39,330 nucleotides of DNA from a virus (IMGVR_UViG_3300022750_000025:1-39330); one strand, 5' to 3'; shown: positions 8,513-28,358, numbered from the stretch's first letter. The notes: generated by a model not told the origin, from the sequence alone. A program made the numbers and translations.

Positions 8513-8549
8513 TAAAAGTAGATCTGATCTGTATTTTTTAATAGGACAG
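8513..8549 (-). promoter_or_regulatory. late promoter P1 (CTGTCCTA-N21-TACTTTTA)
   Basis: The upstream element occupies 8542-8549 and the -7 box 8513-8520, separated by exactly 21 nt. It faces the short interval before the 8405-8438 terminator. It is one of eight copies in the window. Confidence 0.7.
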
Positions 8550-8554
8550 CCTTT

Positions 8555-9070
8555 TTAGGCTCCCACTTCGGGCACTGGGGAGCTTAGTTCCCACTTATCC
8601 GGCTCAAAGCAAAGCGGGTTCCTGCTGCCCAGGGTATAGAGGATATTCCAGCCATACATATTATCCATAATGGGCCCCACCTTTTCCATACGGAAGGTGC
8701 CGGCATCGAATAGCATAAACAGCCAGTGGTTCCTGTCTTTACTGAGGCGGTCGAGCATTGAGGCGATATCGTCGCCAATTTCCTCCATGCGGGAAAGTAC
8801 TTCGTCGTGCTTATCGTAATCATCTGCCTTGCCGGCAAAGTCTAACAGCAAAAAAGAGATATCGCGGTCCTTAAAGTTGGTGCTTTTGTTAGGGTTGGTT
8901 TTTACCTGGCCGCTGTAGCTCTCCAGCATAAGCACCGGCGTTTCTACGCCATTGCGTAGTTCGCCGGCAAGCTCTGCCATATCAAAGCGGTAGAAACCAT
9001 TAATTTGTTTATGCCACTGGGCTAATAGCCGGTGCAGTTCTGTTACCTGGGTGTGGGATATTCTTGCCAT
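8555..9070 (-). CDS. hypothetical phage late protein (171 aa)
   Basis: A soluble acidic protein with alternating helices (DKHDEVLSRMEEIGDDIASMLDRL) and a C-terminal beta-rich part. Its start overlaps the stop of the upstream gene by one base, so the two form a coupled pair at the end of the lysis/tail-fibre transcript. Similar-sized proteins in this position occur in Bacteroidota prophages, but I cannot assign a role; tail assembly or virion accessory protein is a guess. Confidence 0.65.
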   Translation of the reverse strand: MARISHTQVTELHRLLAQWHKQINGFYRFDMAELAGELRNGVETPVLMLESYSGQVKTNPNKSTNFKDRDISFLLLDFAGKADDYDKHDEVLSRMEEIGDDIASMLDRLSKDRNHWLFMLFDAGTFRMEKVGPIMDNMYGWNILYTLGSRNPLCFEPDKWELSSPVPEVGA

Positions 9071-9816
9071 TACTGTTTAGCTGCTTTAATGTTTTCCTCA
9101 AATTCCTCAAGGAAGGTGTAAATATTGGTTTGCCCCGTTTCTTTATGGCTGCCAAACTTGCCACCGGCCATAGTAAGCACTGCTTTACCAAAGCCATACT
9201 GCTTGCCGCCGGTTGCCGGGCCGTTACTTTTAGGGAACGCCACCGGGTAACGTTTTACCAGGGCATTCTTACTGCCATTATAAGCGAGCTCCATGGCCAG
9301 TAATTTGTGCAGTGGTACATTATCAAACTGTTTTGCAAGATGGGGCAACGCGGTATTATCAAATACTGGGCCGCTGCGCTTGTAGATGGTAGCCGCCATA
9401 TATTGTAACGGGTTGCGGTGCCTCTCTTTATCCCACAACTTGGCCATGCTCTCTGTACTGGCAAACTCTGCCGCCGTAAGCGTGCTTAGGCGTGCGCCGG
9501 GTGTACTTAGCTGTTTCCAGAATTTAAAGCGCTCCCAGGGCGTTAATAACGATTTTGGGAATATGGTGCGGTCGGCACTTTTGTAAATAAACTTGTAATG
9601 CTGCCTGAGTTCTGACAGCGGTACATCGCCCAAAACTTTATACACGCGGTAATTTTTAAGCCAGGTGTACCAGCGCAGGTTAACCAGGATAAGGAAAACA
9701 GCCCAGTCGAACGCCGGGCCCTTCCTACCGGAATGCAACAGTGCCGCAATTTTGTACAGCTGGCCATCGCTAAGCTCATCCCAAGATGCGGGTATGCTAA
9801 AGGATATCGCTTTCAT
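9070..9816 (-). CDS. hypothetical phage late protein (248 aa)
   Basis: The start at 9816 (MKAISFSIPASWDELSDGQL...) is preferred to 9927, which would lie deep inside the spanin gene. With 9816 the overlap is 20 nt. The protein is helical with Trp-rich stretches (NLRWYTWLKNYRVYKVL, TPWERFKFWKQL) and a Gly/Lys-rich region near residue 210. No recognised motif. It is coupled to the following gene by overlapping stop and start. Confidence 0.65.
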   Translation of the reverse strand: MKAISFSIPASWDELSDGQLYKIAALLHSGRKGPAFDWAVFLILVNLRWYTWLKNYRVYKVLGDVPLSELRQHYKFIYKSADRTIFPKSLLTPWERFKFWKQLSTPGARLSTLTAAEFASTESMAKLWDKERHRNPLQYMAATIYKRSGPVFDNTALPHLAKQFDNVPLHKLLAMELAYNGSKNALVKRYPVAFPKSNGPATGGKQYGFGKAVLTMAGGKFGSHKETGQTNIYTFLEEFEENIKAAKQ

Positions 9817-10294
9817 TTGTGTTCTTTTTACGCAAAATAAAAAGCCATAGCAGAAACAACACCGCAACGCCTGAAAGTATAATGTATAGCCCGGATTTAA
9901 TTCCTTCCCGCTCTGAAGCCTTTGCAACGGTAGTAGCTTTTGCTATCATTTTTACAGCTGCAGCTTTTGCCGTTGTGGTTGTAGTTTTCTCCTGGCTATT
10001 GCTTTTACTTTTTTCCTGTGTTTTGGTAGAAGTCTTTTTACCGTTGGTTATCGTTTTTATATTGCCTTTACCATCATCTATAACCATAGGCTTGGTGGGG
10101 TCTACAGGCTCATAGGTATCTGTAAAGGTTTCCGACTCGTTTTGCGTTACGGTATTAATAACAGCAAGAACATTGGTATTTTCGGTAGCTACAGAATCCT
10201 TTGTAATTTCAAATTCACTTTTAAGTGTATTTGTTTTGCGTGCACCGCAGCCGAACATGAGCAGCGCTGCGAGTAGTAAGGTTATTATTTTCAT
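9797..10294 (-). CDS. putative unimolecular spanin (outer-membrane lipoprotein with C-terminal TM)
   Basis: The N-terminus is a lipoprotein signal peptide with lipobox ending at C16 (LLMFGC). The middle is a polar Ser/Thr/Lys-rich linker. Near the C-terminus a transmembrane helix (about 135-155, LYIILSGVAVLFLLWLFIL) is followed by RKK. One chain anchored in the outer membrane by lipid and in the inner membrane by a helix is the design of u-spanins such as T1 gp11, which fuse both membranes in the last lysis step. It directly follows holin and endolysin genes (overlap of 4 nt with the endolysin stop), which supports the call. Confidence 0.7.
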   Translation of the reverse strand: MKIITLLLAALLMFGCGARKTNTLKSEFEITKDSVATENTNVLAVINTVTQNESETFTDTYEPVDPTKPMVIDDGKGNIKTITNGKKTSTKTQEKSKSNSQEKTTTTTAKAAAVKMIAKATTVAKASEREGIKSGLYIILSGVAVLFLLWLFILRKKNTNESDIL

Positions 10295-10791
10295 TTAGGT
10301 AAGCGTTTAATTACTGATTGTTTTACTTGTTTCAGGGTCTTGGCATAGTCCGGAGCTGTTGCGTAACCGGCTTTCGCTATTTCTTCAAAGAACCGGTCCG
10401 GGTCCATTTTATATTTTAGCGCCTCTTTATAGCGCGGGTTGCGTTCAAAAAAATCGCAATGATCTTCAAAGCAAAGCTGTACACTGGCGTACTTCCTGAA
10501 CCAGTCTTTAACGGTATACTTAAATAGCTTGCCCACGCGCACTACTTTAATTACTACCGGGAATTTGGCTGTGGCGGTCTTTAAATATTCGGTTGTAGTG
10601 ATCAGCTGCTCATTACCGTTTATACCGTCGGTATCTTTTATACCAAAGTCGTTATTGCCTACAGATTTCTCGCCCCACGCACTCTCCAGTGCGCCCTGGG
10701 TTAAGGGTATCAAATAATGATAGCCTCGTTTTTGCTGCACAGCCTTGGCGTATGGCAGCCTGCTCGATACATATAATTCGGGTGTCATCAT
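10291..10791 (-). CDS. endolysin, glucosaminidase (GH73/FlgJ-like) domain
   Basis: It hydrolyses the peptidoglycan glycan strand between N-acetylglucosamine and N-acetylmuramic acid. The domain occupies nearly the whole protein: LTQGALESAWGEKSVGNNDFGIK carries the likely catalytic Glu (in ALESAWG) and the NNDFGIK box, followed by KYASVQLCFEDHCDFFERNP and AKAGYATAPDYAKTL, all typical of this family. There is no signal peptide, so export depends on the holin. It lies between the holin (10791) and spanin (10294) genes with overlapping ends. Confidence 0.85.
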   Translation of the reverse strand: MMTPELYVSSRLPYAKAVQQKRGYHYLIPLTQGALESAWGEKSVGNNDFGIKDTDGINGNEQLITTTEYLKTATAKFPVVIKVVRVGKLFKYTVKDWFRKYASVQLCFEDHCDFFERNPRYKEALKYKMDPDRFFEEIAKAGYATAPDYAKTLKQVKQSVIKRLPK

Positions 10792-11102
10792 TACTCTGCT
10801 TTTTTTGCCCGGTTAATAAATGCGATAAAAATTGCCTCTACAGATCGCAGGCCTCCGTAGCCAAGCATAAATGCAATGCCGTACAGCGTGTCATCTGAAA
10901 GGTGGAGCCACTGGCCTACAATGGGCGTTAGGTAGTTTGCGGTTAAGCCCCCGGAGAGCACCGATAAAAATTTCTTCCAGGGCGAAAGCTTATTGTCTTT
11001 GCTTAAAAAAACTATACCGCCGGCAATGCCGGCGATAAATAGAATTATATCAAACCCAAAGTACCTGGTGGTAATAGCGAGGTTTAGGAAATAGTTTTTC
11101 AT
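10791..11102 (-). CDS. putative holin (103 aa)
   Basis: The protein has a hydrophobic segment at about 17-34, a second at about 43-60 and a Gly-rich third (about 73-92), with a basic C-terminus (NRAKKAE). The size, multiple membrane segments and place directly before the endolysin gene fit a phage holin that forms the pores through which the endolysin passes. Stops and starts are shared with both neighbours. The exact holin family is not assigned. Confidence 0.7.
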   Translation of the reverse strand: MKNYFLNLAITTRYFGFDIILFIAGIAGGIVFLSKDNKLSPWKKFLSVLSGGLTANYLTPIVGQWLHLSDDTLYGIAFMLGYGGLRSVEAIFIAFINRAKKAE

Positions 11103-11566
11103 TATTTTAGTCCCGCCGCTTTTTTGGCCGCAGCTTCTTTCGCTGCTTTCTTTTTTGCCTTATTCTTAATGTAGTTCTGTACCACCCCAGTAATTTGTAT
11201 AAATGCTAAGAAGCATACACCGGAAGATATTAGTAGCGGTAAATTCCATCTTTTTATTTCAAATAATAAAAACAATGGCACGACTATAAGAATACCTATA
11301 GCCGAACCTATCAGCTTCATTTGCCATTCTTTTACAATCCTCACAGCCGTTTTATGTCCCTGCCCTTGGAACCAATCAACTAAAAATGCTATTACCCATG
11401 TTGCAAACGGCCCTAAAATGCAGAGGACAACATAAATACTATCCGCCGGATCTTCTTTTTTATCGAAACAACCGGCCATAAATAGCAGCACCGATATACC
11501 AAATAGAAAATCGCCGAGGAATCTCTCTTTTTTGAAATCTTTAAAATACTCTCTGAACTTTTTCAT
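11102..11566 (-). CDS. four-helix membrane protein of the lysis cassette
   Basis: Hydrophobic segments lie at about 18-34, 44-65, 84-103 and 108-129, and the last 25 residues are Lys/Ala-rich (KAKKKAAKEAAAKKAA), which suggests a cytoplasmic basic tail. It overlaps the holin start. It may be a second holin, an antiholin or a membrane accessory of lysis. A gap of 27 nt separates it from the tail-fibre associated gene upstream. Confidence 0.6.
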   Translation of the reverse strand: MKKFREYFKDFKKERFLGDFLFGISVLLFMAGCFDKKEDPADSIYVVLCILGPFATWVIAFLVDWFQGQGHKTAVRIVKEWQMKLIGSAIGILIVVPLFLLFEIKRWNLPLLISSGVCFLAFIQITGVVQNYIKNKAKKKAAKEAAAKKAAGLK

Positions 11567-11593
11567 AATTATAATGATTTAAATGTTACGTTA

Positions 11594-11815
11594 TTATTGC
11601 GCCTCTTTCCACTCGTTGTAGTCGTTAGCATCTTCGAAAACCTGTCCAGTCTGTGCTAAAATTTCGGCAGTTTGAGCCGCATCAAAATCATCTTCCAGAA
11701 GAACGAAAGGCAACCTAACGGGGTTATCGTTATTACCGTTTTTAAACACCTGGCTTAGTACTTTATAATACTGCAGCAGCAAGGGAAATTTTGTTATAGG
11801 GACTATTCCGTACAT
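11594..11815 (-). CDS. hypothetical small tail-fibre-linked protein (73 aa)
   Basis: The ATG at 11815 follows the LamG gene stop by 10 nt and is preferred over 11863, which would overlap that gene. The product is acidic with a C-terminal helix (DFDAAQTAEILAQTGQVFED). Its position right after a receptor-binding-type protein suggests a tail-fibre chaperone or accessory protein. No sequence motif proves this. Confidence 0.55.
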   Translation of the reverse strand: MYGIVPITKFPLLLQYYKVLSQVFKNGNNDNPVRLPFVLLEDDFDAAQTAEILAQTGQVFEDANDYNEWKEAQ

Positions 11816-11825
11816 GTTTAATTTT

Positions 11826-12839
11826 TTAATAGTTAATTTGGATTGCGCCTTTGTAGTTGCCACTGGTGGTAGCCCGCAGCCATACCGTTTGCCCCTGGGT
11901 AAGGTTGATAGATACTGTGGCCAGATCGCTTGTAAATGTTAGTGTTGTAAAGTTGGTACCGTCTAAACTGTACGCCGCTGTTGTGGTACCGCCAAAACGG
12001 ATAAAGCTTGTTACCCGCATTGTTTCAGGCGATGCCCATGTTTTTGTTACTGTAGTGTTATAACCAAAAACCACGATGCAGTTTGTGCGCGGATATACGT
12101 ACAAGTCAGACAATGCGTTATTTATCAGATTGGCATTATTGCTAACGCTGCTATAATCGGCCATTGTGCCATCAAAGCCCCAGAAGCCTTTTGCGCCCTC
12201 ATTAGGGATATTTCCCAGTTCTAAAGAGGCAATTTCCTCATTAGTTAAAGCCCTGTTATACACCCCAAATTTGTCAATGTAACCTGTAACAAGAGTTCCA
12301 AAATTAGCACCGGCACCCAGGGTAAACGTGCCGGGGTTATCTACATCATCCGGCACCATACCCGATGGCATGGTAGCCCAGTTTACGGCGGCTCCATTTA
12401 TAAATGCATGGTAATTTGCAGGGTTGCGTACAGAGGATGGCCAGTTTGCAGTATCGGTGTTAGCAGCATTATTGCTTCCTGTTCTTGTTATTACAAACGT
12501 TGTAAAGCCGTCCTGCACGAAATAGGATATAGGCAGTGTAAACGTAAATGAGGTATTGCCATTATCTACCAGGACCAGCTGAAAAGTAGTGGTGCTGATT
12601 ACGTTCATTACAAATCTTTTAGTTACACCCCCCGCTGCATTTTTTCGTATGAAAGACGTTGCAAAACTCGTGGTACCAGCACCACCGCCTAACCAAATAA
12701 CCCGCATCATAAATGTAAATGGCAAAATACCGATGTTGTAAAAACTGTTACCGGGTATATCTATATAATCGTTAGCCCCGTCGAGGCGTATGCATCGTTC
12801 TTTAATTTCGAAAGAGCTCTTTAAATGCTGGTAGCTCAT
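11826..12839 (-). CDS. LamG/concanavalin-type lectin fold tail protein (337 aa)
   Basis: Residues about 15-235 show a laminin-G-like jelly roll: RLDGANDYIDIPG near the start, alternating strands, then the characteristic DKFGVYNRALTNEEIASLE followed by GFWGFDGTMADYSSVSNNAN. The last 100 residues form another beta-rich domain. Such modules on phage tails bind host surface glycans. It overlaps the 604-aa putative fibre gene by 4 nt and likely forms the tip of that structure. Confidence 0.75.
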   Translation of the reverse strand: MSYQHLKSSFEIKERCIRLDGANDYIDIPGNSFYNIGILPFTFMMRVIWLGGGAGTTSFATSFIRKNAAGGVTKRFVMNVISTTTFQLVLVDNGNTSFTFTLPISYFVQDGFTTFVITRTGSNNAANTDTANWPSSVRNPANYHAFINGAAVNWATMPSGMVPDDVDNPGTFTLGAGANFGTLVTGYIDKFGVYNRALTNEEIASLELGNIPNEGAKGFWGFDGTMADYSSVSNNANLINNALSDLYVYPRTNCIVVFGYNTTVTKTWASPETMRVTSFIRFGGTTTAAYSLDGTNFTTLTFTSDLATVSINLTQGQTVWLRATTSGNYKGAIQINY

Positions 12840-14650
12840 ATCGTGTGTGCTTTAAGTGTTGCCATACCTATACTCTCGCCGGCTGTAATAACACATTTTA
12901 TACGGATGGTAAACCCGGCATTTCCTTGTGATGTAGTAAGAGCATTGATATCAGCGTTGATGGCTGCCAATGTGGTTCTTACAATACCAATAGCTGTAGG
13001 GGTGTACATTTGATATTCCGCTACCGATGTTATGGCACGGATAAGAAGTATACCATCAATAGCTACCTTAGCATTAAATGATATAAACAAGACCGGGTTA
13101 AGCTGGCCAAACTCTAATGAAAAATTTAGCGCCCCGATATCTGCAACGGTAGCAACGTCTACACCGTTTTTTTTAAGGCTGCCCGTAAAGTTCCAGCCTC
13201 CGGAAATAGTTGCAGCCTGTGTTTTAAACCATGCTAACAGGTTAAACATCCTGATACTGTCTACATATTTGTTTTGTGTTATTGGCGCGGTGGTAACCTG
13301 CAGGTCGCTATCTGCGGCCCTGCTGCCTATAAGGCGATCGTTTAACCAGGTAACCAAATTGGGTATATCTCCCATTTGCGTGCCATGCGGGTTGCCGGTA
13401 GCTAATGAATGTGTATAAGCTGCCGCGCCTCGATCTCCCCTGTATGCTGTGGTATCGGTTTCTCCCAAAATTAAGGTAGTTGGATTTCCGGTTTCGCTTT
13501 CGCTAAAAATCTGAAAATCTAATTCGCTACTTTGCAAGCGGCCGGAACCGTAAATACCGGATACGCCTGTCCATAAATAAGTAGTAGCGTCGCCGTTAAC
13601 CGTACCTTTAAATAAGGTATAGCCCTCATTTTGCGGCTGTATAATTAAAGGAGATATTTTTGTATTAAGCCATTGTGAAATGGTAAGAGACGTTAAATTA
13701 CCAAACTGAAAAGTATCTGTTTCAGGGTCATCTGCTACATCTGCAGGGGTTGCCGGTGTTTCCCAGAACAACTGTAAGTCGCCGGCAGCAATAGTTTTGT
13801 TACCAAGCAGGCCGTAAGTACCCTTACCCTTATTAAACACTTTATATTTTGCAGTAGTGCCTGGATTATTGAAGGTACCCCGTGTATTAACAAAAATCCA
13901 AAGGCTTTCCTTCTCACTTACGGTGAATGTATCTCCACTATTAACCCTACCTGCAACGCCAGATAAAGTTAGAGGTATACTAGTAATATATGATTGTTTG
14001 ATATCAATGTTATCCTGGTCAACGGGCTCTGCTTCTTGCGTAACTCCCGATGGGATTAAATTTTCAGCCGTAAGCTGGTTTTCGTAGTCGCCGCCATAAT
14101 AACCTTCAGCATCCTGAACTTTGACCAGGTAGTTTTGTCCGTCTTTTATATAAGTGAAAAAATAAATTTTATCAGGGTCGCTCAGGTCGCGCCCTTCGCC
14201 GTTTGCGGCTGTTAGATAGTCACCATCCGGTAAAACTCCTAAATCTATAAACACCGTATTACTGCTGTTTTCTATATCCTGGGTAGTGGTGCCCTGCGTG
14301 GTTATGTAACTAAGATTGCCGTCAACAACGGCTGTACCTCCGCTGCCATAAGTTCCCTTCCCGGCATTAAAAAAGTAAAGCCGGGTAACAGCTTCCACAC
14401 TCCCTGCAGCTAAAGATAACACCGAGTAGGCTACTGTAACCGGAGTTTCTATAGGAGATATACTGAACGAGATACCGTTAAGCCGTTCAACTACCTGAGC
14501 AATGGTTACGTTTTCATCCGGGTTAAGAGTATATCTTGTTAACCTGATCCTGCGGGGAATGTTGTTTTGTTCTATATCGGCACCAGGACCGGGCGAATTT
14601 TCGCCACAGGTACCGCAGGAATTTTGACTATTAGAAGCGTTTACTGACAT
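12836..14650 (-). CDS. putative tail fibre / receptor-binding protein (604 aa)
   Basis: A long beta-rich protein with few charged clusters and repeated GKGTYG motifs (near residues 95-100, 275-280 and related GIYGSG near 365). The middle contains AYRGDRGAAAYTHS and NPHGTQMGDIP, a pattern often found in tail-fibre shafts (HN/NPHGT motif). The C-terminal 80 residues form a separate domain. It is the first gene after late promoter P2. The ATG lies only 4 nt from the -7 box, which suggests a leaderless transcript. Confidence 0.7.
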   Translation of the reverse strand: MSVNASNSQNSCGTCGENSPGPGADIEQNNIPRRIRLTRYTLNPDENVTIAQVVERLNGISFSISPIETPVTVAYSVLSLAAGSVEAVTRLYFFNAGKGTYGSGGTAVVDGNLSYITTQGTTTQDIENSSNTVFIDLGVLPDGDYLTAANGEGRDLSDPDKIYFFTYIKDGQNYLVKVQDAEGYYGGDYENQLTAENLIPSGVTQEAEPVDQDNIDIKQSYITSIPLTLSGVAGRVNSGDTFTVSEKESLWIFVNTRGTFNNPGTTAKYKVFNKGKGTYGLLGNKTIAAGDLQLFWETPATPADVADDPETDTFQFGNLTSLTISQWLNTKISPLIIQPQNEGYTLFKGTVNGDATTYLWTGVSGIYGSGRLQSSELDFQIFSESETGNPTTLILGETDTTAYRGDRGAAAYTHSLATGNPHGTQMGDIPNLVTWLNDRLIGSRAADSDLQVTTAPITQNKYVDSIRMFNLLAWFKTQAATISGGWNFTGSLKKNGVDVATVADIGALNFSLEFGQLNPVLFISFNAKVAIDGILLIRAITSVAEYQMYTPTAIGIVRTTLAAINADINALTTSQGNAGFTIRIKCVITAGESIGMATLKAHTI

Positions 14651-15659: not shown

Positions 15660-17017
15660 TAATTGGTAACTTTTTCCTGCCCGGTTGGGTTTTTATCCAG
15701 GGTGGTTAGTATTGTATTCTCGAAAGCACCGGTAATGGCCGGGTCCCATCCGTTGTAATCGCGAATGAAATCGAAAACCTCCAACGTAGTTTCGCGGTTT
15801 GTTTTAAAGAGCGCTGACAGGATATTAAAGGCCGCACTCTTATCTGATCCGGAACCGGCTCCAAGTTTGCCACCGGGTATACCTGCGCCCACCAGTGAAG
15901 GGTCTACACCAATAGCAAATAAAATTTCGGAGTTGGCCGCTTCGGCTTCAGGCAGGTAGGAACCATCTTTAAATTTGTCATCGATGGTGGTTATAGTGAT
16001 GGCCGAAATGGTTTCGCCTTTTGCATCTACCAACTTCATTGACTGGATAGACTTGCCGGCATTTGCATTGCCTGATAAGTGATCGTTTATAGAATCGATT
16101 ACTGCTTTACGTATGGCCTTGCGCTCTTCAGGATTGAATTTTATCCACTGATCTAAATACATTTGTTGGAAGTAGCGCTCGTCAATTTCGATGAGATACT
16201 TTATCGATACCTGGTTTTTAAACAGGTTGTTTTTATATTCGGGGATTGAGTTGGCCACATCGAGCCAGCCCGATTTTGTAATGCTGTGCCATTCGGCTTC
16301 AGGGTAGTAGGCCTCATCTATAAGCGGGTAAAATACCGGACGGACAAAATTGTGTATTTTGTTTACCCTGCAGTATTCTTTAACTTCTTCAGCACTCCAG
16401 TAGCTATCGATAACCGGCACGGTGGCCACATAGATGCTGTCTGTAGCTACGCTGGACTTTCCAAACTTCTCTGAGATATAAACATTCTCAATAAGGCCGC
16501 TCTTTTCGTTCATTACCTCAAAGCGGCACCAGGCAGCTTTTTGGCGTTTAACCCTGTTTATTGTGTTGTAATCGTTTGACAGGATATACTCCGGGAACGC
16601 AATAGAAAAATACTCGAGGTCGGTAATCGTTTCTTTCCAGAAACGGTTCATTTGAGATTTATTAAAGAAATCTTTTATGACCGGCTGGCTTTCTGTAGGC
16701 ACTATCTTATGATCATGTTTACCGTCTTCGGTAACACCGTGGGTCATAAGAACAAGGCCATTGCCGTAATGCGCCTTGCGCAGCAGGCGCAGCGCCGATG
16801 TGGCAGCGCCGTTAAGTTTTACACGCTTCAGGATATCCTGAGGGTAATCGTTCGCGGTACCCCACGAGGCTATGGTGCCCACTTTGTCTTTGGTATCGAC
16901 CTGCAGTGTGGTAACGGTATCTTCGCCCTTAGCGGTGGTGTTGGTAAAGGCATACACAGAGCCGCCCCCCTTAAACGAACTCAAAGCGAAGTCGCCTACA
17001 AATATTGTATCGTTCAT
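15659..17017 (-). CDS. putative portal protein (452 aa)
   Basis: The protein forms the ring through which DNA enters the capsid, if the call is right. Evidence is length (450 residues is typical), the middle segment with a long wing-like helix region, and the C-terminal EILFAIGVDPSLVGAGIPGG followed by a Gly/Ser loop and SAAFNILSALFKTNRETTLEVF, a pattern frequently seen in portals (a loop before the long clip/crown helix). It is downstream of the terminase genes and starts with a one-base overlap with the 114-aa gene. No motif is diagnostic. Confidence 0.65.
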   Translation of the reverse strand: MNDTIFVGDFALSSFKGGGSVYAFTNTTAKGEDTVTTLQVDTKDKVGTIASWGTANDYPQDILKRVKLNGAATSALRLLRKAHYGNGLVLMTHGVTEDGKHDHKIVPTESQPVIKDFFNKSQMNRFWKETITDLEYFSIAFPEYILSNDYNTINRVKRQKAAWCRFEVMNEKSGLIENVYISEKFGKSSVATDSIYVATVPVIDSYWSAEEVKEYCRVNKIHNFVRPVFYPLIDEAYYPEAEWHSITKSGWLDVANSIPEYKNNLFKNQVSIKYLIEIDERYFQQMYLDQWIKFNPEERKAIRKAVIDSINDHLSGNANAGKSIQSMKLVDAKGETISAITITTIDDKFKDGSYLPEAEAANSEILFAIGVDPSLVGAGIPGGKLGAGSGSDKSAAFNILSALFKTNRETTLEVFDFIRDYNGWDPAITGAFENTILTTLDKNPTGQEKVTN

Positions 17018-17361
17018 TAATAAATAACTTTTTGGTCGTTAATTGAGATTATGAAATCAATGTTCACTTTGCGGATTTCGCCATTTGGCAGCTGTATGTT
17101 GCGGGTGCGGTTCTCAAAGTGGTTGGGGTTTTTGGCAGTTACTACCGGGTCGAGCAGGTTGTAAATATTGATAGGCTTATCTGCATCCGGATTAGCCGGG
17201 TACATATAAATTGCGCCGTCAATTTCTTTTAGCTTGCCGCCCTTTTTTGTGGTAGCGCTAAACGTCCTGAAAGTGATATTAAAATGTATGAGGCTGCCGT
17301 AAGCATCACGCCGTCTCATAATTTCTAATGCCTGTGAAAGTGTTATCGTGCCATTTTCCAT
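17017..17361 (-). CDS. hypothetical protein preceding portal (114 aa)
   Basis: A beta-rich soluble protein (SLIHFNITFRTFSATTKKGG, GAIYMYPANPDADKPINIYN) with a C-terminal strand pair. It opens the portal operon. The ATG is 4 nt from the -7 box of late promoter P3, so its mRNA may be leaderless. No family recognised. Position suggests a head-assembly accessory protein. Confidence 0.6.
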   Translation of the reverse strand: MENGTITLSQALEIMRRRDAYGSLIHFNITFRTFSATTKKGGKLKEIDGAIYMYPANPDADKPINIYNLLDPVVTAKNPNHFENRTRNIQLPNGEIRKVNIDFIISINDQKVIY

Positions 17362-19722: not shown

Positions 19723-20486
19723 GCTTTAGCTTCAATTAATGAGGTAATGTGTAGTAGTTCGTCTTCCTGCTTTATCAGGTTGCCTTCCTTTTTAGCCAAG
19801 GCATTTTTTAGCCTGGCACGCGGTGCCGGTCGCTTTTCGGCTTCATACTGCAGGCGGTTTTGTTCCAGGCGTTTTTTAAGCCGGCTTATGCTGCTAAAAA
19901 GGTTTTGTTGTTTCTTGGCCAGCTGTGCGCCGCCCAGGGTAGAATGTTTGGGTATCTCAAGTGGTGGCACTTTTCTATGTTCCTGCCAGTAGTCTATTTT
20001 CTGCCAGCAGCGCGCATTTTTTTGTGTTAGTGCGTAAATGCGCAGGCACAGCTCCAGCGCTTCACTTTCCATTTCCGGTGCCAGGTCATTAAGTAGTGTC
20101 TTGAGTAAACACTTTTCGGCAAACAGGGCGTTTGCTTCCTGAAGGACCGGGCGCAGCTCTGCCGGTAGGTGATGGAACAGCAGTTTTTGCTTTGCATCCT
20201 GTGCCGGCGGTTCTGCCGGTGCCTGGGGTACTGCGGCCGCTTTCTCCCCTCTCTTTTGGAGAGGGGCCGGGGGTGAGGTCGTTACAACCGGCACTTCTTG
20301 CGCCGGCACAATATTTTGTTTTAAAATCTTCCGGAGCTCATATTTAAGCTTCTCATGATTTACAGGGTTTTGGCCTTCCTGCAGGCGCTTAAGTAATGCC
20401 AGCATGCATCCGGGTATAGCAGCATACAGCGCTACGCCTTCAGGGTATTTGCAACCGGTGTCTAACCATTTTTGGATACTTTCCAT
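19719..20486 (-). CDS. hypothetical coiled-coil protein upstream of terminase (255 aa)
   Basis: The N-terminal 60 residues are helical, residues about 68-100 are a Pro/Ala-rich linker (TTSPPAPLQKRGEKAAAVPQ), and the C-terminal half is a long coiled coil rich in Leu, Lys and Gln (AKKQQNLFSSISRLKKRLEQ). It is the first gene after late promoter P4 and overlaps the small-terminase-like gene by 4 nt. The -7 box ends 4 nt before its ATG. Role unknown; possibly a packaging accessory protein. Confidence 0.6.
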   Translation of the reverse strand: MESIQKWLDTGCKYPEGVALYAAIPGCMLALLKRLQEGQNPVNHEKLKYELRKILKQNIVPAQEVPVVTTSPPAPLQKRGEKAAAVPQAPAEPPAQDAKQKLLFHHLPAELRPVLQEANALFAEKCLLKTLLNDLAPEMESEALELCLRIYALTQKNARCWQKIDYWQEHRKVPPLEIPKHSTLGGAQLAKKQQNLFSSISRLKKRLEQNRLQYEAEKRPAPRARLKNALAKKEGNLIKQEDELLHITSLIEAKA

Positions 20487-20527: not shown

Positions 20528-20528
20528 C

Positions 20529-20553
20529 AAAAAGCCCTCACATGGAGGGCTTC
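20529..20553 (-). terminator. intrinsic terminator after second methylase
   Basis: AAGCCCTC (minus strand) pairs with GAGGGCTT (20532-20539 with 20545-20552) and is followed by TTTTT. It separates the methylase pseudogene from promoter P4. Confidence 0.8.
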
Positions 20554-20555
20554 AT

Positions 20556-21362
20556 TTATCTAATTGGGTAATTAGCAGTAAGGCATTCAGTTTTACGGCG
20601 GTTATTCTGTGAGACTGATAAGTGCATGTTCTTATCGTCACTGTCCCAACCCTGTTCAGATCGGTACCGGTCTAATACCTCGTTAGGGTAGCTGCTTAAT
20701 AAGAATTTGCCCTTTATCCTGGTCAGCGCATCCAGTAACTGGTTAAAGTGTTCCTGAGTGTAACCACCGTAGTGGCCCTGGTCACTATCTACATAAGGCG
20801 GGTCAAGGTAAAAGAAAGTGTCCGGGCTATCCAAACGCTCAATAAGCCTAATGGCATCAACACATTCAATTTGCACGTGGCGCAGGCGCGCGCTAAGTTC
20901 CGGAGTGATCAGCAGCTTTTTATTCTCACACATCAATACTTCTTTAGATGTGGGGTTGCTCGCCCTCCAGCTGCCTATCTTGTTGCTAAAGCCCTGCACG
21001 GTACCTATCCAAAACGCCCAGGCTTTAACCAGTGGCGTATAAATGTACGGGTGTTCATAAACTACCATTGCCTTTTGGTAGGTCTGCCTGCTGTATGGCG
21101 TAGCATAAATAGCAGCCTTCAGGGCATCATAGTTAAGCTTTAGCTGCTCATAAAAGTTAACCACCATGCCGTTGTAATCGTTTATAATTTCAGCCTCTGC
21201 CGGCTGCTTTGCCCAAAACACCGCCCCACCGCCAAAGAATATTTAGGCGTAAGTTTTATGTTCCGGGATAATTGGTAAAATGTGTTTAAGCATGCTCTGC
21301 TTTCCACCGTAATAAGAAATCGGAGTTTTAAGCCTTCCTTTGGGCGTTGCAATCTTGGTCAT
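20556..21362 (-). pseudogene. second D12-class adenine methylase, broken by in-frame stop
   Basis: From an ATG at 21362 the frame encodes a D12-type N-terminus (TPISYYGGKQSMLKHILP) but reads TAA at codon 40 (21243-21245). In the same frame it continues IFFGGGAVFWAKQP (motif I), ND (near 21180), and the intact catalytic DPPY motif (FFYLDPPYVDSDQG). A single G-to-T change from GAA to TAA explains the break, because Y-A-E-I-F-F-G-G-G-A is the expected family pattern. The part after the stop (221 aa from an internal ATG at 21221) lacks the SAM-binding motif, so it is probably inactive. Unlike the first methylase (6309) its catalytic motif is canonical. Confidence 0.85.
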
Positions 21363-22960: not shown

Positions 22961-22980
22961 ATATAAATATTAAAAGGTTG

Positions 22981-23532
22981 TTATGCCTCAGGCTCTTCCA
23001 CAACAGTACCGCTGTATATTGGCGCTGGCCATAGCTGTGTATCCTGGATAGTAAAAGAACATGCGTTGTTACCGGTCATGTCTGCCTCGATGGAGTGCTC
23101 CAGGGCGGTAAACTCCGCAAACGATCTGTTAGAACCTAACTGCCTAAGCCTGCCAGAACCTGCCTCTTCAGCCAGGACAATGTAATCGGCATTTTTAACC
23201 ATACGCATAAAGCCCAGTACTACGGCTTCGCTGCCTTGTATCTGGCCTGCAAGCTCGTTAGTGTAAACCCTTCTTTTACGTTCGCCGCCCATGGTACTTT
23301 TTATGGTACCGGTCTTACTGGCAACGGTAATTTTGTTAAAGCCTTTACCTTGTTTAAAGGTGTGCGCAGTGGCAATGGCCGCTTTAGTAGCGTAAGCCCC
23401 TACAGCGCCAAATAACGGAGGGTCTACCACCGTTGTAAAGTCAGAACGCAGCGCATAGTAGATATCAATATTAATACCGCCTACAGGCTCACAGCTTTCG
23501 CCGCCTACGTCTTCAGTGTTTATCGTGCACAT
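22981..23532 (-). CDS. putative tail tube / major structural protein (183 aa)
   Basis: The protein is beta-rich (INIDIYYALRSDFTTVVDPP, AHTFKQGKGFNKITVASKTG) with a helical middle and an acidic tail. It is about the length of siphophage tail-tube proteins and is the last gene of the capsid operon. In Bacteroidota phages a protein of this type often follows the capsid gene. The call is by position and fold pattern; an alternative is a head decoration protein. Confidence 0.5.
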   Translation of the reverse strand: MCTINTEDVGGESCEPVGGINIDIYYALRSDFTTVVDPPLFGAVGAYATKAAIATAHTFKQGKGFNKITVASKTGTIKSTMGGERKRRVYTNELAGQIQGSEAVVLGFMRMVKNADYIVLAEEAGSGRLRQLGSNRSFAEFTALEHSIEADMTGNNACSFTIQDTQLWPAPIYSGTVVEEPEA

Positions 23533-24026
23533 TAGTGTATTTGTTTTATGAAGCCGTTTTCGCCCACAATTAATGTGGTCATGGCTTCGGGATCATTTAA
23601 AAGTTCCTCCAGGGTATATGCCTTGTCATCGTGAAATAAGCGGGCAGGTGTGTCTTTTACAAAGCCATAAGTGCGGCCGTTGTAATCAAAAGTTGTTTTG
23701 GGTTCTGCAGGCGCATCGATTGTTTCTTCAACCGTGCCTAAAACTGTTACGGGGCTAACCTGGTGCGCAAGGTTTAATATAGTGCCTTCAGCCTGGTCAA
23801 GCTCCTGCGTTAACTCTGCAATGGTGTGGTTGGCGGCTCTTATGTCGCCTTGCAACTCAACAACCTCGGCCTCAAGTGCCGCGATCCTAACACCCTGCCC
23901 CTCGGCAATATCCATTGCTTGATTGTATAACTCAAGCGGCACGGTTGCCGGATTTTGTACCTCCGGTGTAGTAGTAACCGAAGCTGCAGGTCCTGCAGCT
24001 TCGGTTTTTTTAATGGCGGCTCCCAT
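23532..24026 (-). CDS. hypothetical coiled-coil structural protein (164 aa)
   Basis: An Ala/Pro-rich N-terminus is followed by a heptad-like coiled coil (residues about 35-90, IAALEAEVVELQGDIRAANH) and a compact C-terminal domain with FDYNGRTYGFVKDTP. It lies between the capsid and tail-tube-like genes with overlapping ends. A head decoration or head-tail joining role is plausible by place. Confidence 0.55.
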   Translation of the reverse strand: MGAAIKKTEAAGPAASVTTTPEVQNPATVPLELYNQAMDIAEGQGVRIAALEAEVVELQGDIRAANHTIAELTQELDQAEGTILNLAHQVSPVTVLGTVEETIDAPAEPKTTFDYNGRTYGFVKDTPARLFHDDKAYTLEELLNDPEAMTTLIVGENGFIKQIH

Positions 24027-25036
24027 TATGCGGCAGCTACTAAGTTTTCGCTATCGTAGTAAAGCGCGTTAAGAGCATTGCTGTTAAGCCCTCTGTTGCT
24101 GGCATCAAACACAGCTACATAAAGCAGCTCATTGATCAAGAAGTCGTAACCAAGGCTAAACTCCATAAAGATTTTTACGGTGTAATCCTGCACCTGGATA
24201 TCTGTAACAGATGGTTTGTCGATCACGTCGATAAGGCGCACCATGTTATCGTTAACCGTTGCAAAAATCAACGTGTCCGGGATGTTATTAAGGCCCACGA
24301 TTTCAATTTTACTAAGTGGTGTCCTTACGGTATCACCCTCTTTAAAGTTCACATGCGTACCATACGCCTGTTGGTAAGCATCAATGTAGGTAAGCAACAA
24401 AGAGTCGCTCATAAAGATGCGTTTTACCTTTTTACGGGTTTTCTTTGGCAGCCCTTTTTCAAACTTCTTAACCTGGTCAAGAATATTTGCAGATGTTATT
24501 ACCGAAAGCGGAATTTTAAACGCCGGGTGCGTTGCGTTAGTAAGTGCTGTAGAAACTTGCTGTACAATACCATTAAGCGATGTGCCATAACTGCCGGCAG
24601 CTGTAGCCGCGTTATACACACCGTCCTGGCTAAGGTCATCTATATCATCAATAACCTTAAGGTTAAGGTCATCCATGATAAATTTAGATATCGGCATCTG
24701 GTCCGGCGTTTTACCTTCAGTGTAAAGGTCTGCAAGCCATGAAGGCAGGATTTGTGCCGGCACAACAGGGAAGTTGACCTTTTGCCTAAAGTTCTCCAGC
24801 TTTTTACTTTTAAACGATTCCGTGCCCAGTGCTTGCCATACAGGAGCAAAGCCTTGTACTACTCTGCTCATTATATTGTGAAACTGCGGGTACTGGCCGT
24901 TAATAGCCGAAAGCGTTTTACAGTATTGGTTTATCTGAACAGAGTCAGAGTAAACACCCGCGCCAATAATAGTCTTGTTATTAACGACGTATTTGCCAAC
25001 TTCTTTGGCGATGTCCTGAATTGATATATCAGCCAT
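24026..25036 (-). CDS. major capsid protein (336 aa)
   Basis: The assignment rests on position after a protease/scaffold gene and on length. The protein has an N-terminal helical arm (residues 1-20) and a long mixed domain. The hydrophobic C-terminal IFMEFSLGYDFLINELLYVAVFDA resembles the axial-domain end of HK97-fold capsids. No cysteines or membrane helices. It overlaps the next gene start at 24026 and begins 5 nt after the protease/scaffold stop. It is expected to be one of the most abundant late products, made from promoter P6. Confidence 0.75.
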   Translation of the reverse strand: MADISIQDIAKEVGKYVVNNKTIIGAGVYSDSVQINQYCKTLSAINGQYPQFHNIMSRVVQGFAPVWQALGTESFKSKKLENFRQKVNFPVVPAQILPSWLADLYTEGKTPDQMPISKFIMDDLNLKVIDDIDDLSQDGVYNAATAAGSYGTSLNGIVQQVSTALTNATHPAFKIPLSVITSANILDQVKKFEKGLPKKTRKKVKRIFMSDSLLLTYIDAYQQAYGTHVNFKEGDTVRTPLSKIEIVGLNNIPDTLIFATVNDNMVRLIDVIDKPSVTDIQVQDYTVKIFMEFSLGYDFLINELLYVAVFDASNRGLNSNALNALYYDSENLVAAA

Positions 25037-25041
25037 AATTA

Positions 25042-25509
25042 TTAATTAAAAATGTTTTTAGCGATTTGGTTGTGCGCAGCATTGGCATCCAGGTAATCCG
25101 GGATTGCATCAGCAGCCGGTTTACCATCAGTTTGCACGTTGGTAGGCTTGGCACCATCGGCTTTGTTAAGCACTGCCTGGTGCGCGCCCAGGGCGGCAAT
25201 TTTCTCGGTAAGTGTACCGGTAGGTGTTAATCCTGCAGCAGTAAGAATTGTTTCTACAGCGCCTTCGTGGGCTGAGATGGTGGTGGTGTGGGTTGTGTTA
25301 GCTTCTGCAAGGTTTGTTTCAGCAGTTGCTTGGGCGGTTGCAGCGGTTGCAGCCTCGGTTGTAAGTGTGGCGATTGTTCCATCTTTTTTAGTTAAGTCGG
25401 TTTCAATAGCATCAAGCTGTGTGGCGTTCAGGTAACTTCCGCCGTCAGTCTCTGCCAGTGGTTGTGTTAATCCCAAAACAGCCTGCAGGTGTGCACGCGG
25501 TGTTGACAT
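25042..25509 (-). CDS. possible nested scaffold protein from internal start (155 aa)
   Basis: The ATG at 25509 (MSTPRAHLQAVLG) lies right at the boundary between protease and scaffold-like regions, after AT-rich sequence. It parallels the nested scaffold genes of lambda (Nu3 inside C). Only position supports it. Confidence 0.35.
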   Translation of the reverse strand: MSTPRAHLQAVLGLTQPLAETDGGSYLNATQLDAIETDLTKKDGTIATLTTEAATAATAQATAETNLAEANTTHTTTISAHEGAVETILTAAGLTPTGTLTEKIAALGAHQAVLNKADGAKPTNVQTDGKPAADAIPDYLDANAAHNQIAKNIFN

Positions 25510-26388
25510 ATTATTTGAGTTTTGATTACTTTTTTGTGCGGCTGATAGTTCGAAAACTTTATCTACAGCCGTTTGCAGGGTGCCTATTGCATCAATAAGC
25601 CCAAGCTTTAGCGAGTCGGTGGCGTTGTAGGTTCCGCCGGTAAGGGTCTCTTCGCTAAGGGTAGTACGTGCCGATTTCATATCGGCGTGGAAATCTTCCA
25701 CAATAGGGTCTAACTGGTTTTTTATGTACCCTTTGCTGTCGCCTTTAAGCAGGTTTTCAAAATCGCGGTTCTTAGCCGTCGATTTTGTAGCATACTCTGT
25801 AATTACCTTTGCGCCCTGGGCTTCATACATGCCTGTGACATCTACAAAGTGTACCATTGCGCCTATGCTCCCTATATGGTCAGCGCGCTTATTGGCCACG
25901 ATGTACTGCGACGCACTGCCTATGTAGTAGGCCGCACTACACATGTAACCATCGGTATAAGCCACTACGGGTTTGCCGTAGTTAAGGAGGTAATCATAAA
26001 ATTCAGGGGTCCCGCTTACCTGGCCGCCGCCACTATCAATGTCCAGCACAACGCCGGCACAGGCAGCATCATTTTTATACATGTCCAGGATGCGCATTTT
26101 TGTCTTGGTACCCTGAGGCCCGCAATCCTGACTGTATTTAAAAATCGGGTCCTTTATATCTAAAACCAGTACATACTCACTTGAGCCACCACCGCTTTTT
26201 GGTCCCGCCGCAAGTGGCATCCCGCCGCGGCCCATGGCCACAGGTTCAGGATGCTTTTTGTCAGAAGCGGAAATGGTGGCAGTTTTGCCATCCATCATTG
26301 CAAAAAGAGAAGGTAGTAAGGCGGTACCGTATGCTTCATGTATGAAGTATCGGCCGTTAAGAAGTGAATGCAGGTTATTTATACTCAT
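25042..26388 (-). CDS. S49-family capsid protease fused to a scaffold-like domain (448 aa)
   Basis: Residues about 70-285 are a ClpP/SppA-like fold with VVLDIDSGGGQVSG and YMCSAAYYIGS carrying the likely nucleophile S151. K202 (TKST) is the candidate general base. It also has the IGSIGAMVHFVD strand. Residues about 290-448 are Ala/Thr-rich and coiled (AAATAATAQATAETNLAEAN), as in capsid scaffolds. An internal ATG at 25509 would yield a 155-residue scaffold alone. Such proteases remove scaffold and mature the capsid. Confidence 0.8.
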   Translation of the reverse strand: MSINNLHSLLNGRYFIHEAYGTALLPSLFAMMDGKTATISASDKKHPEPVAMGRGGMPLAAGPKSGGGSSEYVLVLDIKDPIFKYSQDCGPQGTKTKMRILDMYKNDAACAGVVLDIDSGGGQVSGTPEFYDYLLNYGKPVVAYTDGYMCSAAYYIGSASQYIVANKRADHIGSIGAMVHFVDVTGMYEAQGAKVITEYATKSTAKNRDFENLLKGDSKGYIKNQLDPIVEDFHADMKSARTTLSEETLTGGTYNATDSLKLGLIDAIGTLQTAVDKVFELSAAQKSNQNSNNMSTPRAHLQAVLGLTQPLAETDGGSYLNATQLDAIETDLTKKDGTIATLTTEAATAATAQATAETNLAEANTTHTTTISAHEGAVETILTAAGLTPTGTLTEKIAALGAHQAVLNKADGAKPTNVQTDGKPAADAIPDYLDANAAHNQIAKNIFN

Positions 26389-26415
26389 TTGTACTGTTGC
26401 GTTTTAAGCACGGTA

Positions 26416-26452
26416 CAAACTTATTTTTATGGCCTGCCTTTAAATAGGACAG
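26416..26452 (-). promoter_or_regulatory. late promoter P6 (CTGTCCTA-N21-TAAGTTTG)
   Basis: The upstream element is at 26445-26452 and the -7 box at 26416-26423, which fully matches TAnnTTTG. The leader is about 20 nt before the protease/scaffold ATG (26388). Confidence 0.8.
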
Positions 26453-26487
26453 CCCTTTTTGCTACTGCCGGCAGTAAGAATCGGGCA

Positions 26488-26513
26488 TAAAAAAACCCGC
26501 ACAATGGCGGGTT
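26488..26513 (-). terminator. intrinsic terminator after Acb2-like gene
   Basis: AACCCGC / GCGGGTT (26494-26500 with 26507-26513) and a run of T residues on the minus strand. It isolates the Acb2-like gene from promoter P6. Confidence 0.85.
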
Positions 26514-26534
26514 AATTTATTTAATGTGTGTAGT

Positions 26535-26755
26535 TTACAATTTAGCAGTTGCTAATTTTACTGCCCACATTGAAGCCTCCTCAAATTTTGTTATGGAATA
26601 GCAGCTAAACGAGGATCTAAATCCCTGTGCTCATCTATCACATTAATTATTAGGGCTGTCTTGTCTTTAAAGAAATTTACATTGCCCACATTCGAGGGGT
26701 TAAACGATGTCCTTACAATTTTTTCTCCAATGGTAGGATTTGCTGTTGCGCTCAT
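26535..26755 (-). pseudogene. acb2: Acb2/Tad1-like anti-CBASS cyclic-nucleotide sponge, frameshifted
   Basis: The first frame from ATG 26755 reads RTSFNPSNVGNVNFFKDKTA and DEHRDLDPRLAAIP, then stops at 26591. The shifted frame reads SITKFEEASMWAVKLATAKL and stops at 26535. Joined, these match the Acb2 pattern: FNPS start, a Lys-rich helix, arginine-rich turn, then a K-x-E-x-x-MW helix ending in AVK. Acb2 proteins are short (about 75-95 aa) phage proteins that bind CBASS cyclic nucleotides and block defence. One T missing in ATT(T)CC explains the break. Gene length with the base restored is 73 residues. A host-type promoter precedes it. Confidence 0.75.
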
Positions 26756-26781
26756 ATTTATTAATTGTGTTAAATTATTTT

Positions 26782-26812
26782 ATATTTTACTATATCGGTC
26801 TATTATCTCAAA
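26782..26812 (-). promoter_or_regulatory. host-type promoter (TTTG-N19-TAAAATAT) for Acb2-like gene
   Basis: TTTG at 26809-26812 and a TAnn-type box at 26782-26789 are separated by 19 nt, near the Bacteroidota spacing. The CTGTCCTA late element is absent. This suggests expression independent of late regulation, as expected for an anti-defence gene. Confidence 0.4.
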
Positions 26813-26829
26813 TCTATTATCTAAAAAAT

Positions 26830-27294
26830 TTACTCGGTAAAATACACCGGCCTGCTGCTCAGGTCCCCTTTTATTGCAATGTCAATACCGTGGCTATCCT
26901 GCCGTTTAGTACCGTAAGCATTTTTATACGTCATGTACAGCGGCTCCTGGTCGGTTCCCCATTGCTTGCGGTTGCCATCATTGCCACAACCGCGCACAAT
27001 GCAGGGCTTGTTAGCATACTGCTCCAGCAGTTGCTCCATGGCCGCGTTACGCGCCAGGAAGCGGTACCGTATATCTATTGGCCAAATCTGGCCGCTTGCA
27101 TCAGTTTTAGGGTCATCACTTATAGTAATGCTATCCGGTTCAATAGTGCCGTCTACATCATTTACCTCCGGGTTAAGTGTAATACTGCCGGCATTGGCAT
27201 CGGTTACCACCAGTGGCCAGTCGGCCGTTTCAGATATCAGGAATAATTCTACCGATGCAAACCCGGCCAGCTGCTCTTCTATATTAAAAATCAT
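26830..27294 (-). CDS. hypothetical late structural protein (154 aa)
   Basis: The ATG at 27294 (MIFNIEEQLAGFASV...) is preferred over 27339, because the upstream stretch is part of a repeated non-coding segment (27301-27376). The protein is beta-rich with many Thr, Asp and Gly residues (VNDVDGTIEPDSITISDDP) and possibly a tail component. It lies between the small gene at 27370 and the Acb2-like gene. Confidence 0.55.
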   Translation of the reverse strand: MIFNIEEQLAGFASVELFLISETADWPLVVTDANAGSITLNPEVNDVDGTIEPDSITISDDPKTDASGQIWPIDIRYRFLARNAAMEQLLEQYANKPCIVRGCGNDGNRKQWGTDQEPLYMTYKNAYGTKRQDSHGIDIAIKGDLSSRPVYFTE

Positions 27295-27300
27295 AAGTGC

Positions 27301-27376
27301 AAAATTTATTTTTACGAATGTGTCCGACCGCGCGGCCAATGATATTAAGGTTTGACAAAGATTTTAACATTATTTC
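27301..27376. repeat. direct repeat copy 1 (about 77 nt)
   Basis: This segment and 27613-27689 are about three-quarters identical over 77 nt, including TTTTTAC, TGTGTCC and AGATTTTAACATTATTT. Each copy lies between a stop codon and the next start on the minus strand. The gene 27370-27612 is bracketed by them. Confidence 0.7.
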
Positions 27377-27612
27377 CTGTAACTTATATCAAATTGATTC
27401 TCTTGTAATTGCTTTTGAAATACCGGAAACTTGGCAGCAACTTCTTCCCATCCGGATCTAACTATATCCGGGGTTTGGTAAAATACCGGTAATGGTGTCC
27501 AGGGCTTCCATTTACCCTTAATGTTATATTTAATTCCTAAAGACGGAATATAATATACACGGCGTGCCATGTAGCAAGTCTCGGTAACTTTCAGCTGTAC
27601 TCTATAAGCCAT
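27370..27612 (-). CDS. hypothetical small protein between direct repeats (80 aa)
   Basis: A basic, aromatic-rich protein (MAYRVQLKVTETCYMARRVY..., GKWKPWTPLPVFYQTPDIVR). The ATG at 27612 is used; an ATG at 27630 is possible but lies in the repeated segment. Its stop is embedded in the same 3' sequence (AATAATGTTAAAATC) that ends the neighbouring gene at 27682, so it may have been inserted or duplicated as a cassette. Function unknown. Confidence 0.5.
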   Translation of the reverse strand: MAYRVQLKVTETCYMARRVYYIPSLGIKYNIKGKWKPWTPLPVFYQTPDIVRSGWEEVAAKFPVFQKQLQENQFDISYRK

Positions 27613-27689
27613 AAATTTTATTTTTACCATTGTGTCCCACCGCTACGCTATTGATAGCGCGGGTTAACAGAGATTTTAACATTATTTTG
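27613..27689. repeat. direct repeat copy 2 (about 77 nt)
   Basis: See copy 1 at 27301-27376. This copy contains an inverted element GCGCTATCAATAGCG on the minus strand that is not preserved in copy 1. Confidence 0.7.
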
Positions 27690-28146
27690 CCATCGGGTAG
27701 AAAATTTCCTTCTTTTTACAGTGCCTGGAGTAGCCACGATATAGGCTTTCCACCTTCATATCATCTTCGGTAATACCATAGCGTTCTAAAAAATTTCTCA
27801 GTTCCGGGTACACCTGGCCGCCGCCCCATGCCACGGCATCCAGGTGGTCGTACAGCGCCATATTAAAAAGGTGCGTGCACAGGTCGCCCAGGTGCTGCTG
27901 GGTGTTGCGTGGTAATGTTGCACCCACCCTGTTAAGATAGCCCTGGGGTATCAAAACGCTGTAAGAAAAAAACAGCGGCATTTTCTTATCCGGTTTTTCA
28001 TACGTTTTCTCAAGGCTGCCCAAAACAAGCATGCCCAGGATAGACGTTTTTGTAGCAATGTGGGCGCTTCCATACTGCCTTTGCAGGTATTTTTTAACAT
28101 GTGCCTTTACAGGAAAAGAAACCGAGATAAGGGGTGCTACTGCCAT
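27682..28146 (-). CDS. hypothetical phage protein (154 aa)
   Basis: A basic protein with hydrophobic patches (SILGMLVLGSLEK, LFFSYSVLIPQGYLNR), no clear membrane helix, and a His/Cys-rich tail (YSRHCKKKEIFYP). It is the first gene leftward of the divergent late promoter region (P7). No family recognised; a role in tail assembly or DNA processing cannot be told apart. Confidence 0.6.
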   Translation of the reverse strand: MAVAPLISVSFPVKAHVKKYLQRQYGSAHIATKTSILGMLVLGSLEKTYEKPDKKMPLFFSYSVLIPQGYLNRVGATLPRNTQQHLGDLCTHLFNMALYDHLDAVAWGGGQVYPELRNFLERYGITEDDMKVESLYRGYSRHCKKKEIFYPMAK

Positions 28147-28208
28147 TCAATCAGGATATTGTATGTTAAAGATATGCAAAAATATTACCAAAATTTTGTT
28201 AACTGATA

Positions 28209-28245
28209 CAAATATATTACAGTTTAAAACATACCGGTAGGACAG
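28209..28245 (-). promoter_or_regulatory. late promoter P7 (CTGTCCTA-N21-TATATTTG)
   Basis: The upstream element is at 28238-28245 and the -7 box at 28209-28216 fits TAnnTTTG fully. It faces leftward to the gene at 28146 with a leader of about 55 nt. The upstream element is the left half of an inverted repeat with 28257-28264. Confidence 0.75.
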
Positions 28246-28256
28246 CCTTTTTTAAC

Positions 28257-28264
28257 CTGTCCTA
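28257..28264 (+). promoter_or_regulatory. unpaired CTGTCCTA element (possible operator half)
   Basis: This plus-strand copy has no recognisable -7 box 21 nt downstream (TCTAACAA instead). Together with 28238-28245 it forms TAGGACAG-N11-CTGTCCTA, a palindrome that could bind a dimeric activator. Confidence 0.5.
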
Positions 28265-28321
28265 TCTCCCTGTATTATGCGGCTATCTAACAACCGTCAA
28301 CTAACAACCATTGCCCCGTGC

Positions 28322-28358
28322 CTGTCCTATTTATCGGTTTTTCGTGCGGGTACCTTCG
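28322..28358 (+). promoter_or_regulatory. late promoter P8 (CTGTCCTA-N21-TACCTTCG), plus strand
   Basis: The upstream element is at 28322-28329 and the -7-like box at 28351-28358. It faces the tail operon; the ATG is at 28376. The same 21-nt spacing is used on the opposite strand, which argues strongly for a promoter function. Confidence 0.75.

Follow-up and report, generated by a model that had tools for sequence, protein, structure and literature searches.

How does a temperate phage switch on late gene modules that lie apart from one another and on both strands of its genome? The question is raised by a virus record of IMG/VR (IMGVR_UViG_3300022750_000025:1-39330), whose whole stretch of 39,330 nucleotides (nt) is hereafter called the window. 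The record represents a temperate siphovirus of Bacteroidota that encodes an integrase and a repressor. Early genes occupy the plus strand from 0.8 to 7.1 kb, late genes the minus strand from 7.3 to 28.1 kb and tail genes the plus strand from 28.4 to 36.1 kb, the labels early and late being assigned from gene content. The first-pass annotation of this DNA had described eight copies of the motif CTGTCCTA, each followed after exactly 21 nt (N21) by a Bacteroidota -7 box, and had interpreted them as late promoters. Our sequence analysis strongly supports the promoter interpretation. It is close to certain that the copies belong to a promoter class conserved as a functional element, and late activation by the protein family encoded at 27682-28146 (minus strand) is likely. 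The reading as a whole, namely one late promoter class used by the host polymerase with a phage activator that is most likely the 27682-28146 protein, is one that we consider probable.

All eight copies were found with the coordinates, strands, 21-nt spacers and boxes that had been described, and they exceed chance expectation. The window contains nine exact matches to CTGTCCTA, against 0.67 +/- 0.87 in shuffled sequences, and none of 100 shuffles reached nine. In eight of the nine, a Bacteroidota -7 box follows a spacer of exactly 21 nt. In a blind search of the window, in which every 6-mer was paired at 35 spacings with a degenerate -7 box, GTCCTA-N22-box ranked first: the box accompanied 8 of its 12 occurrences (uncorrected p = 2e-11, about 1.4e5 tests having been made). 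Ranks two to six of this search were overlapping registers of the same motif.

A common cis element stands before several late operons. On the minus strand, P1 (8513-8549) consists of CTGTCCTA (8542-8549), N21 and the box TACTTTTA (8513-8520), and leads genes 8002-8370 and 7592-7879; its orthologue in locus L007, at 20187, has TATTTTTG. P2 (14655-14691, minus strand, box GAATTTTA) leads a 604-residue late protein and the lysis genes. P3 (17366-17402, minus strand, box GAATTTAG) leads gene 17017-17361 together with the portal gene, which was identified by PHROG and by its match to the Leef_1 portal, and the adaptor gene. P4 (20491-20527, minus strand, box CACTTTTG) leads the module of the terminase (PF03237), and P6 (26416-26452, minus strand, box TAAGTTTG) leads the head maturation protease and capsid genes. 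The only plus-strand member, P8 (28322-28358, box TACCTTCG), leads the genes for the neck protein, the tape measure and the tail. The earlier count of seven promoters out of eight in front of structural, packaging or lysis modules is a little too high. It clearly holds for P2, P3, P4, P6 and P8; P1 and P5 lead small genes of unknown function, in the case of P5 (21967-22003, minus strand, box CATTTTTG) small open reading frames (ORFs) followed by a broken DNA methylase gene, and P7 (28209-28245, minus strand, box TATATTTG) leads the candidate activator gene. The methylase reading frame is interrupted by an in-frame TAA at 21243-21245 (minus strand), its C-terminal part being 20556-21221; a second methylase gene, at 6309-7118 in the early region, is uninterrupted.

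The eight motif-box pairs stand as described, and the count of the motif itself was incomplete. The ninth exact copy, at 28257-28264 (plus strand), has no box at N21. It is inverted relative to the P7 copy, which it faces at a distance of 11 nt, and P8 lies 65 nt downstream of it; this arrangement is kept in both close relatives of the window. In other phages, inverted pairs of elements lie back to back, a few nt apart, and drive divergent late operons (L025 3092/3100, L027 9357/9366 and L030 476/485).

The first-pass annotation would have been refuted if related phages lacked the motif or its spacing. This was not the case: both are kept at orthologous places in relatives whose terminase is only about 50% identical. 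In two close relatives, the IMG/VR contigs G001 (44 kb) and G002 (34 kb), the 8-mer occurs eight times each, and the motif, the 21-nt spacer and the box are retained where the adjoining sequence has diverged. The early region of G001 (28.6-44 kb) contains no 8-mer. Among described phages, Polaribacter phage Leef_1 (Helgolandviridae) is the nearest, with identities of 49% for the terminase, 48% for the portal, 46% for the capsid, 30% for the protease and 33% for the neck protein; by these five common genes the window phage is Helgolandviridae-like. The late genes of Leef_1 are preceded by [AT]TGTCCTTTTTT, which a gap of exactly 21 nt separates from boxes such as TATTTTAG and TATACTTG. The same element stands before late operons in terminase-identified loci of six bacterial genomes (Flavobacterium, Polaribacter, Aequorivita and Thermobacterium), all six carrying prophages, and in further IMG/VR contigs.

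We then defined the element from 77 core sites, which comprise every unique TGTCCTWTT (W, A or T) in the window and its terminase relatives and were picked blind to the box. The full element is TGTCCT(A/T)TTTT with a box [TCG]AnnTTTG at a fixed distance. The box is A at position 2 in 74 of the 77 sites and T at position 5 in 73, and position 6 is T in all of them; position 8 is G in 55 and A in 15 (G or A in 70/77). Its first base is not restricted to T, and no comparable signal was found between core and box in these sites. The conserved part of the motif is TGTCCT(A/T)TT(T/A), and the first C of the motif as originally given turned out to be a preference (40/77). The proposal of a host-like -7 box combined with an upstream element in the -33 region is borne out. 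The Bacteroidota core AnnTTTG is kept at a fixed place in the 77 sites.

Motif and spacing persist in far more distant Bacteroidota phages. When IMG/VR was scanned for the element without regard to homology, about 50 of about 118 loci, among the matches listed, encode relatives of the structural proteins of the window phage. The element is present in Bacteroides phage BT-TP2 (at 10590, 17976 and 25810), in P. gingivalis prophages, in fecal phages and in the 'Microcystis' phage Mea-Yong924-1, so that the related phages bearing it span marine, soil, gut and oral Bacteroidota. Mea-Yong924-1 (L152, MZ447863) was deposited as infecting Microcystis and has Bacteroidota-type promoters and structural genes; it may in fact infect an attached Bacteroidota bacterium, and we doubt the listed host. 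In the Duneviridae, where the protein homologues are more distant, the letters are different and the geometry is nearly the same: laban6-1 has ATGTCACA-N21-box, and phage 6H has CATGTCTT-N21-box with the register shifted by one.

The position of start codons points in the same direction. An ATG lies exactly 4 nt past the box in 33 of 76 sites, and every other offset is represented by at most eight; orthologues of P2-P4 make up many of these sites, which are thus not all independent. The offset is seen at P2 (ATG at 14650, 5 nt on), P3 (ATG at 17361) and P4 (ATG at 20486), and at single sites in the Porphyromonas, fecal and Mea-Yong924-1 phages. This fixed offset leads us to predict leaderless late mRNAs, at P2, P3 and P4 among others, provided that the start point lies some 5 nt beyond the box, as would be expected from the name -7 box. 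Counted from such a start, TGTCC would occupy roughly positions -40 to -36 and WTTTT positions -34 to -30, precisely where sigma region 4 would contact a -33 box.

Which protein might read the element? The gene at 27682-28146 (minus strand), encoding 154 amino acids, is the only non-structural gene of the window with a clear homologue in Leef_1. A homologue was found in every long relative locus from the bacterial genomes, and a profile built from close and middle relatives detects the family in laban6-1, 6H, BT-TP2, Porphyromonas phages, a fecal phage and Mea-Yong924-1 (E values of 7e-10 to 9e-6). Profile-profile comparison (hhalign 96.6% and 96.1%) supports the distant groups. In Cellulophaga phage Ingeline_1 the homologue had been predicted, and a later check gave a weak profile match (7.5e-4); there an element TGTCCTTTT, with N21 and TAGGTTTG, comes directly after the gene. 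The gene is located at the junction of early genes and first head genes in Leef_1, BT-TP2, the Porphyromonas phages, 6H, laban6-1 and Ingeline, Mea-Yong924-1 being the exception among the annotated phages examined. No known regulator family was found for it, with no match in Pfam, PHROG, NCBIfam or the sequences of PDB. In the AlphaFold model (predicted local distance difference test score, pLDDT, 85) a C-terminal helix spans residues 132-149, and this is the part proposed to read the DNA.

The family goes with the element in nearly every case, and the association was also examined in the reverse direction, from protein to DNA. Fifty-eight loci were fetched solely for encoding the candidate family, and every 6-mer was paired with a degenerate box at each spacing from 8 to 45. 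TGTCCT at N23 was the best of all pairs (92/368, log10 p -60; the loci are partly interrelated, so that p overstates independence, and rank and the single peak are unaffected). The spacing has one peak, at 23, the other spacings reaching 2-18, and the next letter permutation reached 5% against 25%. Element and protein also vary together. In TGTCCTA phages the activators mostly end in YR[NQSKGA]Y[QS]R[HYF][CSA], and in TGTCCTT phages mostly in YRD[FY]KRK; when columns are ranked by mutual information with element base 8 (A/T), the top eight include residues 138, 142 and 143. This covariation suggests that the C-terminal helix reads the DNA.

We propose the following sequence of events. The host RNA polymerase with its housekeeping sigma factor would read the eight late promoters at the relaxed -7 box, and TGTCCT(A/T)TTTT, which spans about -40 to -30 when the A of the ATG is taken as +1, would stand in for the host -33 element. 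An activator made in the middle of the cycle would bind TGTCCTW beside or over the place of sigma region 4 and hold the polymerase there, and the separate late modules on both strands would be switched on together. At many sites the late mRNA would begin at or next to the start codon. The candidate is most likely a class II (or sigma-appropriating) late activator.

It is worth considering what weighs against assigning this role to the candidate. A fold search with the protein returned solely the Leef_1 homologue as significant and matched no solved structure, DNA-binding proteins included. On a tree from which the covarying columns were left out, base 8 has just two changes, with two independent pairs and none against expectation; because of these two changes no significance can be attached to the covariation, which is suggestive and was not accepted as proof of contact. 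The link between protein and element could partly reflect common phage ancestry. Two activator-bearing groups (L183/L184/L191 and L197-L202/L206/L208-L210) yielded neither TGTCCT nor a variant element, and the fecal record L218 has two good elements and no homologue detectable by the profile. Finally, the activator gene lies behind P7, a late-type promoter, and its first expression therefore needs another promoter. As variant elements, TGTGGACC in the LKD-type group was rejected as a conserved coding stretch, and CCTGGT/CGTGGA in the HERS-type group was not convincing.

A possible source of that first expression lies between P7 and the gene. A second -7-like box TATTTTTG (28177-28184) adjoins a near-perfect palindrome TTACCAAAATTTTGTTAA (28185-28202), both on the minus strand, and the stretch 28177-28202 is nearly unchanged in two relatives. 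It may be an early promoter with an operator. The palindrome has a single copy in the window and was dismissed as a repeated operator. P7 itself, ahead of the candidate gene, makes positive autoregulation possible.

Among the other explanations, the one that survives best accepts the same late promoter class and assigns binding to another phage protein, such as an unrecognised early gene product or a LuxR-type regulator, the 27682-28146 family being a travelling neighbour. Association is no proof of binding, the early genes are little annotated, LuxR-like genes occur in Leef_1, laban6-1 and Ingeline, and the L218 elements have no detectable candidate homologue beside them. However, the candidate alone among the non-structural window genes has a clear counterpart in Leef_1, and the test that starts from the protein recovers the element. 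The early ParB-like protein was rejected as the binder, being missing from G001, which retains the element. We regard another binder as unlikely, and the 27682-28146 protein as the better candidate.

The first-pass annotation had left the choice between an activator and an alternative sigma partner. A phage protein acting as, or with, an alternative sigma factor would read both the upstream element and the box. The replacement of the -33 box at a fixed spacing, as in sigma-specific promoters, and the relaxed first box base are consistent with it. The box nevertheless retains the housekeeping core AnnTTTG, no sigma region 2 or 4 domain was found in the candidate (Pfam, PHROG and fold search), and no sigma-like gene was found among the window early genes scanned with Pfam and PHROG. 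Given a host-like box, no sigma-like gene among those scanned and a phage protein family that goes with the element, the activator half of that proposal is favoured and the sigma half appears very unlikely.

It is harder still to credit that the phages exploit a conserved host regulator with the element as its site, even though the element is paired with a host-like -7 box and bare 10-mers are present in host genomes. In the six whole genomes with such prophages the full element occurs 22 times, and at least 16 of the 22 lie inside prophage loci, which argues against a host regulon; the bare 10-mer is scattered genome-wide at the frequency of its reversed control. Base 8 of the element, moreover, differs between phage clades. 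Least credible of all is an RNA or terminator-linked signal for processing or antitermination between operons: terminator-like stems directly precede the element in 18 of 76 sites, as at P4 (GAAGCCCTC...GAGGGCTTTTT, 20530-20554, minus strand; the 41 nt running up to the motif have a dG of -13.9 kcal/mol), but stems are lacking at most sites, a gap of 2 nt separates P2 from the stop codon before it, and the rigid distances to the -7 box and the ATG match the expectation for a promoter.

The proposed activator-dependent promoters can be compared with known systems. In T4 middle promoters (MotA/AsiA sigma appropriation), the box of the activator replaces the -35 element at a fixed distance from the host -10 box. 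The window system has a different box, a Bacteroidota polymerase of the -7/-33 type and late instead of middle genes; neither a MotA or AsiA domain match (Pfam) nor a MotA fold (fold search of PDB) was found for the candidate. In phage Mu, activator C of the Mor/C family serves several separate late promoters from a site adjoining the polymerase. Mor/C sites are, however, dyads bound by a helix-turn-helix activator, whereas TGTCCTW is single and directional; the window candidate has no Pfam match at E up to 1, and the other 13 family members have no Mor match. P2 Ogr and P4 Delta are small phage proteins that activate several late operons. They are zinc-binding and their sites lie near -55, in contrast to about -40 to -30 here, and no Ogr/Delta zinc domain was found in the candidate with Pfam. 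By analogy, the window system may work like T4 MotA or Mu C, with a protein that matches neither of those families. The element shares the -7 core AnnTTTG with Bacteroidota housekeeping promoters (TTTG-N19/20-TAnnTTTG) and differs from them in lacking TTTG at N19-20, in having TGTCCTWTTTT instead, and in the relaxed first base of the box.

The closest described phage families are the Helgolandviridae and Duneviridae, and Leef_1 has the same capsid-terminase-portal set, the element and the candidate protein. The main text of the paper describing Leef mentions no promoter (PMC8776804). An open-access literature search for the motif or for late promoters of Bacteroidota phages found nothing relevant, and that literature yielded neither a late promoter class nor a late activator described for temperate Bacteroidota siphophages. 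A wider proposal, for which we hold the chances to be evenly balanced, is that an undescribed activator family of unsolved fold controls late transcription across a large share of temperate Bacteroidota siphophages from marine, soil, gut and oral habitats through TGTCCTW and the host -7 box, with many mRNAs starting at AUG and a specificity changed by a few residues of the C-terminal helix. A late promoter class and a named candidate protein are now offered in phages of tractable hosts (Bacteroides thetaiotaomicron and Flavobacterium), and late gene control in these phages becomes testable. Late operons would be readable directly from sequence, and an inducible promoter system for Bacteroidota genetics would be obtained. 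The predicted leaderless late mRNAs would also provide a case in a phylum that does not follow the E. coli rules for starting translation.

Some further features of the window were noted. Rfam gave no match. A tryptophan transfer RNA gene (tRNA-Trp) is located at 176-254 (plus strand), at the left end, and is possibly related to the integration site. Downstream of P7, two 75-nt direct repeats (27301-27375 and 27613-27687), 79% identical, precede the ORFs 26830-27339 and 27370-27630.

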